In this document: positions 59,570 through 63,774 of the stretch, piece by piece
How positions within the stretch are numbered: position 1 is the stretch's first letter
Layout of the letters: every line of letters starts with the position of its first letter
NCBI GenBank assembly: GCA_019306065.1
Contig: JAFDMF010000002.1
Span: 118,297-182,296, forward strand
Direction of reading: 5' to 3'
Length of the DNA: 64,000 nt
Source: Deltaproteobacteria bacterium
GTDB taxonomy: Bacteria; Desulfobacterota; Desulfobacteria; Desulfobacterales; JAFDMD01
The notes under the pieces: model-generated
Databases searched by the model: none
What the model was told of the DNA's origin: nothing
What the model saw: only the letters and a program-made list of their open reading frames with translations
Made by a program: the position numbers and the translations under genes

Positions 59570-60343
59570 ATGACTCCGCTGCTTAAAGTAAAAAATATGA
59601 CCCATTTTTTCGGAGGATTAAGAGCAGTTTATAACTACAACCTTACTCTTGAAAAAAACAGAATACAAGGTTTAATAGGACCAAACGGAGCAGGAAAGAC
59701 AACCGTATTTAACCTTATAACCGGAATATTTAAACCTTCCAAAGGCAGCGTAAAGCTTGACAACGAAGAAATAGCCGGACTTTTTCCGTATCAAATCGCA
59801 TCTAAAGGGCTTGGCAGAACATTTCAAAACCTTTTGTTATGGAGACATTTAACGGTTTTCGATCATATAAAAATAGCTCATTATTCGCAGATTAGCTACG
59901 GACTTATCGGATCATTTTTCGGCACAAAAAAGCGACGCGAAGAGGAAGCAAAAATAAAAGAAAACTCTTATCGGCTTATGGAAATCTTCGATATATCCGA
60001 TTTTGCGGATATGCTTGCGGTTAATCTTCCTTACGGCGCGCAGCGAAGAGTGGAAATGGCAAGAGCTATGGCTATAAAGCCCAAAGCGCTTTTTTTAGAC
60101 GAGCCTACCGCAGGAATGACCCCCGAAGAATTAATCAGAATGATACAAATAATAAAAAACGTCCAAAAAAAATTTAACGTTGCAATATTTTTAATAGAAC
60201 ACAGACTCAAATTTGTAATGGAACTTTGCGAAACAATACAAACATTGGTATTCGGAGAGGTAATAGCCGAAGGAACCCCGGAGCAAATACAAAACAACCC
60301 GCAGGTTATAGAGGCGTATCTAGGCAAAGAGGATATAAGTTAA
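59570..60343 (+). CDS. livG: Branched-chain amino acid ABC ATPase LivG
   Basis: IQGLIGPNGAGKTTVFNLITGIFKPSKGSV; LGRTFQNLLLWRHLTVFDHIKIA; LPYGAQRRVEMARAMAIKPKALFLDEPTAGMTPEE. Confidence 0.96.
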   Translation: MTPLLKVKNMTHFFGGLRAVYNYNLTLEKNRIQGLIGPNGAGKTTVFNLITGIFKPSKGSVKLDNEEIAGLFPYQIASKGLGRTFQNLLLWRHLTVFDHIKIAHYSQISYGLIGSFFGTKKRREEEAKIKENSYRLMEIFDISDFADMLAVNLPYGAQRRVEMARAMAIKPKALFLDEPTAGMTPEELIRMIQIIKNVQKKFNVAIFLIEHRLKFVMELCETIQTLVFGEVIAEGTPEQIQNNPQVIEAYLGKEDIS

Positions 60344-60359
60344 AAGGAGATATACTATT

Positions 60360-61499
60360 ATGAAATATCAATCCTTAACAATTGAAAATTTCAGAGGAAT
60401 AAAAAAGCTTAAAATAGACGACCTGAAACGGGTGAATCTTTTGGTAGGACGCAATAATTGCGGTAAAACCTCGATACTCGAAGCGGTTTTTCTGCTTTCG
60501 GGAATGTCTAATTCCGATTTGCCTTTAAATATACAAACTCGGCGAGGACTAGCAGTTCTCAATGCGCAGGATATGTTATCTATATTCAAAAATTTAACTT
60601 TTGAAAATCAAATCATTTTAGAAGGAAAACTTGATAATAAAAAACGAAGTTTAAAAATTAATCCTCTTTATGCCGGCGATAGCTCCAATCACTTAAAAAA
60701 ACAGGAAGAGTTAATATCACTAAATCTTCTTGGCGGAATCATAGGAGACGATAAAGCTCAACGGTTAAAAAAACAGGAAGAATTAATATCTCCGAGATAT
60801 AGTTATACGGATTCTATCAAATCGAATCGTATTATAGAAGGTATAAAACTTGATTGCTATAATCATAAAAACAAACTGGTTCATAAAGGACAAATTAATC
60901 TCAGAAGGGGAATATTAAATTTACCGACTTTATCCTTATACAAAGAGAGTTTGACCTGCGCTTATATGCTTCCCGATAAGATTATGCTTGATATAATCCC
61001 CAAGTTGGAAAATCTAACAGTAGAAAAAAAACTTGATGCAATTATTTCGGTTTTGCAAAAACTTGAATCTAACGTTATTGATCTCAGAATAGGAGCAAAG
61101 GGAATTATTTATATTGATATTGGCGGAAACAACCTATTGCCTATTAATATAATGGGGGACGGAATGCGTAGAATCCTTGCATTCTTAACTACCCTTGCGG
61201 AAACAAAAAACGGAGTGGTTTTAATAGATGAAATAGAAAACGGCTTGCATTACTCTTCAATGAACATAGCTTGGAACGCTATTTTAACGGCTTGCAAAGC
61301 ATATGACATTCAATTAATAGCCACAACCCATTCTTACGAAGCCATTGAAGCCCTTTCAAACGCCTATACCGAAATTGAGCCGCAAGGAGACGATATACGT
61401 CTTTACAGATTAGATAAAGACGGCGAAAACCATAAAGCTTATTCCGCTTCCGCGCGGGAATTAAAAGCCGGTATCGAAAAAAATTTTGAGGCGCGCTAA
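60360..61499 (+). CDS. OLD-like AAA ATPase (AAA_15/AAA_21 type), possible defence component
   Basis: YQSLTIENFRGIKKLKIDDLKRVNLLVGRNNCGKTSILEAVFLLSG (Walker A); NGVVLIDEIENGLHYSSM (Walker B); LIATTHSYEAIEAL. Confidence 0.9.
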   Translation: MKYQSLTIENFRGIKKLKIDDLKRVNLLVGRNNCGKTSILEAVFLLSGMSNSDLPLNIQTRRGLAVLNAQDMLSIFKNLTFENQIILEGKLDNKKRSLKINPLYAGDSSNHLKKQEELISLNLLGGIIGDDKAQRLKKQEELISPRYSYTDSIKSNRIIEGIKLDCYNHKNKLVHKGQINLRRGILNLPTLSLYKESLTCAYMLPDKIMLDIIPKLENLTVEKKLDAIISVLQKLESNVIDLRIGAKGIIYIDIGGNNLLPINIMGDGMRRILAFLTTLAETKNGVVLIDEIENGLHYSSMNIAWNAILTACKAYDIQLIATTHSYEAIEALSNAYTEIEPQGDDIRLYRLDKDGENHKAYSASARELKAGIEKNFEAR

Positions 61500-62137
61500 T
61501 GGATAAAAGTTTTAAAATAACATCGGATAATCTTCTTGCGGTAGAAGGTAAGGATGAATGTAATTTTTTTAAAGCATTATTAGAATATTTGGATATAAAA
61601 AAGGTTCAGCTTGTAGATATAGGCGGCAAGGATAAATTTGCCGACGAATTCGGCTATCTTTACGGCAGGGCAGGTTTTAGCTCCGTAAAACAGATCGGCT
61701 TTGTTAGGGATGCCGAAGAAAAACCCGCTCAATCCGCATTTCAAAGTATTTGCGGCATATTAAAGAAAAAAGGATTGCCGGCGCCGGACAAACCGAATCA
61801 AGTTATAGAAAAACAGGGTTTAAAAATAGGCGTTTATATAATGCCGGATAACAAAGGAACGGGAATGCTTGAAAACCTGTGTTTACAAACCATTCAAGGT
61901 AAGCCTATAAACGACTGCATTCAAAATTATATCCAATGCTTTAAGGAGTATCAAACAGAGGAAGAGAAGAAAAAGTATAACGATCCGAAAGCTTGCGTTC
62001 AAACATACTTGGCGTCTCGTTCTCCTATAAAAAACTCTTTGGGGCTTGGAGCATTAAAAGGATATTGGAATTTTGAGCATCAATGTTTTGAAGATATAAA
62101 AAAATTTTTAAAACGACTTTTTGAAGATACAGAGTAA
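61499..62137 (+). CDS. DUF3226/TOPRIM-like protein, partner of the ATPase
   Basis: NLLAVEGKDECNFFKALLEYL, QLVDIGGKDKF, QIGFVRDAEEKPAQSAFQSICGIL, YIMPDNKGTGMLENLCLQTI; TAATG overlap with the ATPase gene. Confidence 0.8.
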   Translation: MDKSFKITSDNLLAVEGKDECNFFKALLEYLDIKKVQLVDIGGKDKFADEFGYLYGRAGFSSVKQIGFVRDAEEKPAQSAFQSICGILKKKGLPAPDKPNQVIEKQGLKIGVYIMPDNKGTGMLENLCLQTIQGKPINDCIQNYIQCFKEYQTEEEKKKYNDPKACVQTYLASRSPIKNSLGLGALKGYWNFEHQCFEDIKKFLKRLFEDTE

Positions 62138-62191: not shown

Positions 62192-62345
62192 AAAATTTTT
62201 AATCTTAAAACATAATAACAAAGTAATTTGTTTGTTTTCAAGGCAATGCGAAAATTTTAATCCTCGAAATACTTCAGTATTCCTGCGGTTAAAATTTTCG
62301 CATAACGCAGCAAACGGGCAAATTAGGAAGTTATCCGACGAAATT
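62192..62345. repeat. Dispersed palindromic element family H
   Basis: TTTGTTTGTTTTCAAGGCAATGCGAAAATTTTAATCCTCGAAATACTTCAGTATTCCTGCGGTTAAAATTTTCGCATAACGCAGCAAACGGGCAAA. Confidence 0.8.
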
Positions 62346-62365: not shown

Positions 62366-63079
62366 ATGCAGATGATAATAAAAAACCTAAAAGTAGCTTA
62401 CGATAAAATAACGGCTTTGCACGGAATAGATTTTAATATAGAAAAAGGAGAGCGGGTCTGCATAATAGGAGCGAACGGAGCGGGAAAAAGCACAATTTTA
62501 CGGGCAATATCCCGTATGGTTCCCGCGCTGCCCGGAACGGTTATGGAGTTTGAAGGGGAAAACCTTCTTTTATTTCAGCCGGATAAAGTGGTTTCAAAAC
62601 TCGGCATATCTCACGTCCCTGAAGGAAGACGCCTTTTCGGTAATCTTACGGTAATGGAAAACCTTAAACTTGCCGCATTTGCGAGAAAAGATAAGGATAA
62701 TATAAAAAAAGACATAAAAACCGTATTCGGAATATTTCCGAGATTAGAAGAAAGAAAAAGTCAAATATCAGGCACATTAAGCGGCGGAGAGCAGCAAATG
62801 CTTGCCGTAGGCAGAGCTTTTGTAAGCGCAAGAAAAATTATGCTTTTAGACGAGCCTTCTATGGGATTGGCGCCTATTTTAATGCTTTCTATGTTTGAGG
62901 CTTTAAAAGAGATAAATAAGGCAGGAACAACTATACTTTTGGTAGAGCAAAACGCGAGACTTGCCTTAAAATTTACAAAACGCGGATATGTTATAGAAAA
63001 CGGGAGTCTTGTTTTGGAAGGAAAATCCGAAGATCTTTTATCCGACCCTGAAGTTAAAAAAGCTTATTTGGGCGGATGA
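62366..63079 (+). CDS. livF: Branched-chain amino acid ABC ATPase LivF
   Basis: VCIIGANGAGKSTILRAISRMVPALPG; ISHVPEGRRLFGNLTVMENLKLAA; LSGGEQQMLAVGRAFVSARKIMLLDEPSMGLAPIL. Confidence 0.96.
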   Translation: MQMIIKNLKVAYDKITALHGIDFNIEKGERVCIIGANGAGKSTILRAISRMVPALPGTVMEFEGENLLLFQPDKVVSKLGISHVPEGRRLFGNLTVMENLKLAAFARKDKDNIKKDIKTVFGIFPRLEERKSQISGTLSGGEQQMLAVGRAFVSARKIMLLDEPSMGLAPILMLSMFEALKEINKAGTTILLVEQNARLALKFTKRGYVIENGSLVLEGKSEDLLSDPEVKKAYLGG

Positions 63080-63125: not shown

Positions 63126-63446
63126 ATGATGTCAGGACTTTCTCCGACAGGAGTAATAAATAAAGTAGCGGCATCTCTTGTCGTCAAACGGAAATATTCA
63201 ACCGTAGAAGAAGCAATTTGGGAGCTGGCATTATCGTCTGTCCGAAGTAAAACAGCTTATTATCGCAGACGCATTCGAAAATTAGAAAAAAAATACGGGA
63301 CAAGCTTCGATAAGTTTACCGCTCAATTAAAAAGTCAGGCAACTCCTGCCGAAGAAGATGACTGGCTTGAATGGAAGTCAGCTCAAAGCATGCTAGACGA
63401 TTGGCAGAAAACCTATCGGAATTTGACTAATGAATCCCCTTGTTGA
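63126..63446 (+). CDS. Putative antitoxin of a TumA/TumE-like toxin-antitoxin pair
   Basis: 106-aa charged protein with 3' end overlapping the TumE-like gene by 17 nt. Confidence 0.55.
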   Translation: MMSGLSPTGVINKVAASLVVKRKYSTVEEAIWELALSSVRSKTAYYRRRIRKLEKKYGTSFDKFTAQLKSQATPAEEDDWLEWKSAQSMLDDWQKTYRNLTNESPC

Positions 63447-63774
63447 AAGCTTAATAGGAATACTTAAAAGGCATTCGGCGGTTCAAAGCATTCGTATTGT
63501 CAATTATGACGAAACGCCCGCAGGAAAACTCGAACTAAAGATACGTTGTAGTCTTGTCAAAAATTATAAGATGCAGATATGGCTACATCACGAACCGAAA
63601 TTTCAAGACTATGCTTACCAATTGTTTACGGATCATCCTATTTTACGTTGGGACAATGCGCCGCACTATCCCGATATTGCTACTGCGCCGCGCCATTTTC
63701 ACGATGCAAGTAATAATGTGAGCGAATCGTATCTAACGGGAACGGCGCAAAAAGATTTGAAAAAAGTATTGTAG
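63430..63774 (+). CDS. Putative TumE/DUF6516-like toxin
   Basis: YKMQIWLHHEPKFQDYAYQLFTDHPILRWDNAPHYPDIATAPRHFHD; the RWDNAPHxP(E/D)IxTxPxHxH pattern is typical of the TumE family. Confidence 0.6.
   Translation: MNPLVESLIGILKRHSAVQSIRIVNYDETPAGKLELKIRCSLVKNYKMQIWLHHEPKFQDYAYQLFTDHPILRWDNAPHYPDIATAPRHFHDASNNVSESYLTGTAQKDLKKVL

Follow-up and report, generated by a model that had tools for sequence, protein, structure and literature searches.

Between livG and livF, two genes of a branched-chain amino-acid (liv) transporter cluster, the window (the whole analysed stretch of DNA, 64,000 nucleotides long) carries two coupled genes, one for an ATPase and one for a small protein with TOPRIM-like motifs. 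Their position raises the question of whether they serve the transporter or form an anti-phage module that has come to rest among transport genes, and to which of the known ATPase/nuclease systems such a module would belong.

Gene Order and Expression

All the genes concerned lie on the plus strand, as read from the ORFs and the sequence: livG, the upstream flank of the insertion (59570-60343); a gene encoding an OLD/RecF-type ABC ATPase of 379 aa (60360-61499); a gene encoding a DUF3226 TOPRIM nuclease-like protein of 212 aa (61499-62137); and livF, the downstream flank (62366-63079), 92% identical to its congeners. The ATPase and DUF3226 reading frames share one base in a TAATG overlap, confirming the coordinates and coupling proposed in the first-pass annotation.

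The spacer between livG and the ATPase gene (60344-60359, plus strand; aaggagatatactatt) contains a Shine-Dalgarno-like aaggag and measures 16 nt, versus 273-286 nt in congeneric alleles with a known spacer. As this gap leaves little room for a separate promoter, the ATPase gene is probably co-transcribed with liv in the window's genome, which suggests expression of the pair from the liv promoter there. The spacer between the DUF3226 gene and livF holds a dispersed imperfect palindromic repeat (62215-62330, no strand assigned), for which 73 matches are listed in the window's genome with both strands counted. In the alleles of the congeners these spacers contain another repeat-like sequence, which in G002 flanks the pair on both sides.

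Downstream of livF (63126-63774 of the window) lies a small module of two genes that resembles a TumE-type toxin-antitoxin pair, its products being a TumE-like toxin (Pfam TumE, 4.7e-12) and an unassigned protein of 106 aa. The same slot holds different genes in congeners (L044:2817-3980 and L045:6286-7697), namely a gene for a protein of ~276 aa (PADLOC PDC-S32 in G002, 9.6e-13), a DUF4160 gene in G001 and a DUF2442 gene in G002. The 3′ side of livF seems to be a place where small genes of defence or toxin type come and go.

The ATPase

The first protein matches Pfam AAA_15 (1.1e-25) and AAA_21 (8.2e-23), in agreement with its earlier description as an AAA ATPase with Walker A and Walker B motifs, both of which are present. 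Its PADLOC matches are PDC-M38A (1.5e-55, residues 4-367 of 379) and AbiLi (3e-55); the PDC-M38A score of 187 bits compares with 93 bits for AriA. Across 74 aligned homologues the catalytic motifs are invariant or almost so. Walker A (GRNNCGKTS, residues 30-38; 60447-60473, plus strand) retains G30 and K36 in 74/74; the ABC-signature-like motif MGDG (residues 265-268; 61152-61163, plus strand) retains G266 in 74/74 and G268 in 73/74; Walker B (VVLIDEIENGLH, residues 286-297; 61215-61250, plus strand) retains D290 and E291 in 74/74, and H324 is conserved to a similar degree.

The structure model (pLDDT 90) finds its best PDB fold matches among SMC and Rad50 heads, PtuA, GajA, retron Eco8 and OLD. 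By profile the protein is related to PtuA, OLD, GajA and AriA, with AriA no closer than PtuA or OLD. Residues 56-215 (60525-61004, plus strand) form a middle domain that varies strongly between alleles and that we propose as a sensor; this role is a guess, as model confidence is low around residues 110-160, within that domain. A 26-nt repeat (60693-60718 and 60765-60790) lies inside a middle-domain insertion that congeners lack.

The DUF3226 Protein

The second protein belongs to Pfam DUF3226 (8.9e-40), scoring 137 bits where the cut-off is 27, and the Pfam matches of both proteins lie far beyond chance. Its PADLOC match, PDC-M38B (7.3e-16, residues 3-209 of 212), is the only family whose models are hit at E values up to 1. 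No Pfam match to DUF4435 was found up to E 1, and no sequence match to AriB in the PDB; a profile match was obtained to PH0156, structural-genomics entry 2p62 (7.7e-7).

The Pfam OLD-like TOPRIM model matches this protein weakly (E 0.12); the TOPRIM fold was assigned from structure. A model built with 65 aligned sequences (pLDDT 96) gave OLD nuclease TOPRIM regions as the sole PDB matches below E 0.001 in Foldseek (probability 1.00, E 1.5e-4 to 5.5e-4, TM 0.39-0.52). The next match after these OLD domains was a weak one to the PARIS complex (AriB, E 6e-3). By its modelled fold, the protein is thus a predicted TOPRIM nuclease, and the first-pass suggestion of separate ATPase and TOPRIM/DUF3226 partners recalling PARIS and OLD is borne out.

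Both TOPRIM-like elements named from the sequence, EGKDE and VRDAEE, are present. Motif 1 (EGKDE, residues 16-20; 61544-61558, plus strand) has E16 in 65/65 sequences and E/D at position 20 in 58/65. VRDAEE occupies residues 69-74 and contains motif 2, D71-A-E73 of the DxD/DxE type (61709-61717, plus strand), with D71 in 65/65 and D/E at position 73 in 64/65. The OLD nuclease of B. pseudomallei (BpOLD) binds metal through E400, E404, D455, D457 and E508 and has K562 as its catalytic lysine (PMC6755086). E16 and E20 match E400 and E404 in order and in their +4 spacing, and D71 and E73 follow in the order of D455 and D457; E125 (61871-61873, plus strand; 65/65) is the likely second-metal ligand, compare BpOLD E508, and K164 (61988-61990, plus strand; K in 64/65) the likely catalytic lysine, compare K562. 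Judged from order and conservation, the E, E, DxD, E, K active site of OLD appears to be kept in the same order.

An Insertion Foreign to the liv Cluster

Outside the genus, livG stands directly before livF in all of the 15 closest livF orthologues (L005-L019), which upholds the earlier claim that the pair is foreign to the cluster. Within the genus the pair occupies the liv site in 3/3 sampled genomes. This sample comprises three MAGs with four liv-site alleles, the sequence L058 being contained in a contig of G001; in G001 itself two contigs each carry an allele of the site and the listed contamination is 6%, so that a strain mixture is likely there.

A part for the two proteins as components or regulators of the liv transporter could be read from their constant position in the sampled genomes and from the probable co-transcription described above. 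The adjacency of livG and livF in relatives contradicts it, as does the placement of homologues elsewhere, which lie away from liv and between many different genes; we rejected this very improbable explanation. The first-pass annotation had also treated placement inside a nutrient-uptake operon as a distinctive arrangement. Embedding in operons is not enriched, close co-directional clusters holding 15/56 of the pairs versus 97/219 control gene pairs, and the liv location is a lineage-specific, incidental insertion and no hallmark of the family.

A Second Copy at purF

In G001 another, different pair is located directly before purF (L182:3693-5455) and is intact, with matches to PDC-M38A (5e-100) and PDC-M38B (1e-57). 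At the same site in the window's genome, G000, a stop interrupts the ATPase gene, and the interval from there to purF contains no DUF3226 gene (L187:2389-3519). The G002 site (L184:1205-1648) is likewise broken: of the ATPase only the first 22 residues are left, and of the DUF3226 protein residues 85-209, a remnant that lacks the positions corresponding to E16 and the DxD motif. The module is dispensable, and both decayed copies have lost the nuclease. Past purF in G001 (L182:6936-9351), and also in the window's genome, three genes in a row were recognised by eye, encoding a RecF-like ATPase, a protein of ~180 aa and one that is PIN-like, possibly another defence or toxin module.

Rapid Divergence at Shared Sites

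Among the four liv-site alleles, livF and livG are 90-96% identical and the outer parts of the ATPase 83-91%, while ATPase residues 56-215 fall to 35-43% identity in five of the six allele pairs and 61% in the sixth. Synonymous differences, counted at codons with identical amino acids, are also higher in the middle domain in 6/6 pairs; between G001 and G002 they amount to 14/24 there, 21/137 in the C-terminal part of the ATPase and 28/215 in livF, a comparison that involves small codon numbers, uncertain alignment of the middle domain and non-independent pairs. The raised synonymous differences suggest that relaxed constraint is not the whole cause and that alleles have been exchanged or have persisted for a long time.

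Four further shared sites show the same tendency, the pair being 39-70% identical and most neighbours 73-95%. The values are 41/39% for the pair versus 73-81% for neighbours at L119/L127; 55/60% versus mostly 75-87% at L097/L133, where one neighbour reaches 52%; 70% for the ATPase versus 95% at L117/L136; and 69/61% versus 93% at L055/L056. At every one of these four sites the ATPase middle has the lowest identity, 24-54%.

Distribution and Genomic Neighbourhoods

DUF3226 is patchy, occurring in 10/297 genomes of the phylum. An ATPase alignment was also searched against one genome per species, and the best 80 loci were taken; they come from many bacterial phyla, as well as from Methanophagales and Methanosarcinales. 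In 68 of the 78 best loci with a called ATPase a DUF3226-like ORF is adjacent, mostly overlapping, and two of the ten loci without such a neighbour end at a contig edge.

By eye, the flanking genes are mostly unrelated housekeeping genes (leuC/leuD, hisB, secF, proA/folB, leuS-lptE and others), and some pairs have restriction-modification neighbours. Two Desulfobacterota loci carry a gene for a chemoreceptor-like protein after the pair (L124:6089-7708 and L055:6256-7734); the L124 protein has Pfam MCPsignal, HAMP and CZB domains, and there the pair and the chemoreceptor gene lie between leuC and leuD. An expected abundance of defence genes around homologues was not borne out: in the same loci, nearest neighbours showed no clear excess of PADLOC matches over genes further out, both being low, although this is a weak test as the PADLOC tally gives per-family counts only.

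The many homologues between housekeeping genes, archaeal ones included, together with the RecF/Rad50-like ATPase, are what one might expect of an OLD-family ATPase-nuclease that processes host DNA or RNA, or acts in the cell cycle, and was spread by gene transfer. There is a precedent in archaeal OLD-family Cran1, which acts in the cell cycle and apparently not against viruses (PMC12796447). We nevertheless regard a host role as improbable in view of the patchy presence, the decay within one genus, the rapid divergence and the carriage on plasmids and prophages.

Carriage on Plasmids and Prophages

In a tblastn search, 116 plasmid records contained DUF3226 relatives; Klebsiella accounts for 110 of these, and most of the records listed are 4167 bp long. 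The one Klebsiella plasmid examined (L166, NZ_CP024435; ~4.2 kb, ColRNAI) has four annotated genes; rop and an HTH gene apart, it carries nothing but the pair. In E. coli, 96% identical copies reside on 4693-bp plasmids such as NZ_CP082125, and no copy was found on the chromosomes of 5426 genomes. A Plesiomonas plasmid carries the pair after phage tail genes.

Among viral sequences, the pair was found in 16/28 ATPase loci of IMG/VR, and no TOPRIM match was obtained among INPHARED phages. In the P2-like prophage L150 the pair is flanked by Phage_GPA (7e-127) and, at the gpQ position, by a phage portal gene (3.5e-12). L148 is arranged in the same way, and Pfam confirmed its Phage_GPA. The gpA-gpQ interval is a known hotspot, the site of P2 old and tin and of many anti-phage systems (PMC9122126). 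Further copies lie after lambda-P-type replication genes or near a Zot-family phage gene.

Small plasmids with almost no other cargo are also where an addiction module might be sought, in which a TOPRIM toxin is held by an ATPase antitoxin and the pair is retained mainly as its loss is toxic, stabilising plasmids or prophages, with phage defence secondary or absent. The PARIS pair has itself been described as a toxin-antitoxin system, and neither of the decayed purF copies retains a complete nuclease gene, one having lost it and the other keeping a truncated remnant. Strong diversification of the ATPase middle at shared sites better fits recognition of a changing partner, and the P2 gpA-gpQ placement also speaks for defence. 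We consider addiction as the main role unlikely; the two readings are not exclusive.

Proposed Function

An immune or addiction module is favoured over a housekeeping function by the conserved active site, the constant pairing of the two genes, carriage on plasmids and prophages, the hotspot placement, the patchy distribution, the decay at purF and the fast divergence. As neighbourhoods show no enrichment, the case for defence in particular rests on the plasmids, the prophage hotspots, the patchiness, the second-site decay and the divergence. We think it rather probable that the two genes make up a mobile immune module of the split-OLD kind, candidate PDC-M38, that acts by a PARIS-like mechanism and whose place between livG and livF goes back to a chance insertion in an ancestor of the genus. 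The lack of enrichment in operons or beside defence genes, the absence of INPHARED matches, the profile result that AriA is no closer to the ATPase than PtuA or OLD and the Cran1 precedent count against this immune reading.

If the pair works as PARIS does, its ABC ATPase would bind the small TOPRIM nuclease and keep it inactive. A phage product, recognised via the variable middle domain, would then alter this ATP-dependent complex. Once freed, the TOPRIM protein, with metal held by E16, E20, D71, E73 and E125 and with K164 as catalytic lysine, may cleave tRNA or DNA on which the cell or the phage depends, and infection would be aborted.

We further speculate that DUF3226 pairs could form a separate split OLD-type immunity class of bacteria and archaea, situated largely outside defence islands, in which the fast-changing ATPase middle senses phages, is renewed as alleles at fixed chromosomal sites recombine, and is coupled to a constant TOPRIM nuclease; this extension is possible, if doubtful. 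Since the middle varies and the remainder is constant, what triggers such systems can be tested directly, and natural alleles suited to work in laboratory E. coli are available from the E. coli plasmids of 4.7 kb, the Klebsiella plasmids of ~4.2 kb and the prophages of P2 type.

Comparison with Known Systems

Both proteins match a candidate listed in PADLOC-DB 2023, PDC-M38 (A and B), nearly over their full length and as products of adjacent genes. No defining difference from PDC-M38 was found, the liv-site B protein being a more distant member (7e-16). The first-pass proposal of an undescribed defence system therefore stands as regards defence candidacy and falls as regards novelty, since both proteins are already in PADLOC; the locus belongs to a listed, uncharacterised candidate. 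Neither PDC-M38 nor DUF3226 is named in the literature searched, which holds no published mechanism for them.

Several one-chain and multi-gene systems share parts of this design. OLD proteins of class 1/2 (P2 Old, GajA, BpOLD) likewise combine a RecF/Rad50-like ATPase, a TOPRIM fold and the E/E/DxD/E/K order, but have ATPase and TOPRIM in one chain, whereas here they are two proteins from two ORFs; GajA-type systems differ additionally, as no GajB-type helicase is found here. The ATPase matches AbiLi of AbiL (AbiLi/AbiLii) as well as it matches PDC-M38A; the second protein matches PDC-M38B models only in PADLOC, at E values up to 1. Septu resembles the pair in that PtuA is among the closest solved ATPase folds, but its nuclease partner is an HNH protein and here it is a TOPRIM protein.

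PARIS (AriA/AriB, class 4 OLD) is alike in having an AAA_15/AAA_21 ATPase and a TOPRIM protein encoded by a separate adjacent gene, and has likewise been found in P2/P4-type hotspots (PMC9122126). Its AriA hexamers hold AriB until a phage protein frees it, whereupon AriB dimers cut tRNA-Lys (PMC11455837, PMC12409363); a trigger such as Ocr and tRNA cleavage are features of PARIS. Membership of PARIS was rejected, as the partner here is DUF3226 instead of the DUF4435 of AriB. Of split ATPase/TOPRIM systems, the literature searched describes PARIS alone as an OLD class. Compared with characterised systems, the pair would be a distinct split OLD class, and a second widespread split family with a partner of its own, if confirmed, would make the split arrangement a common design.
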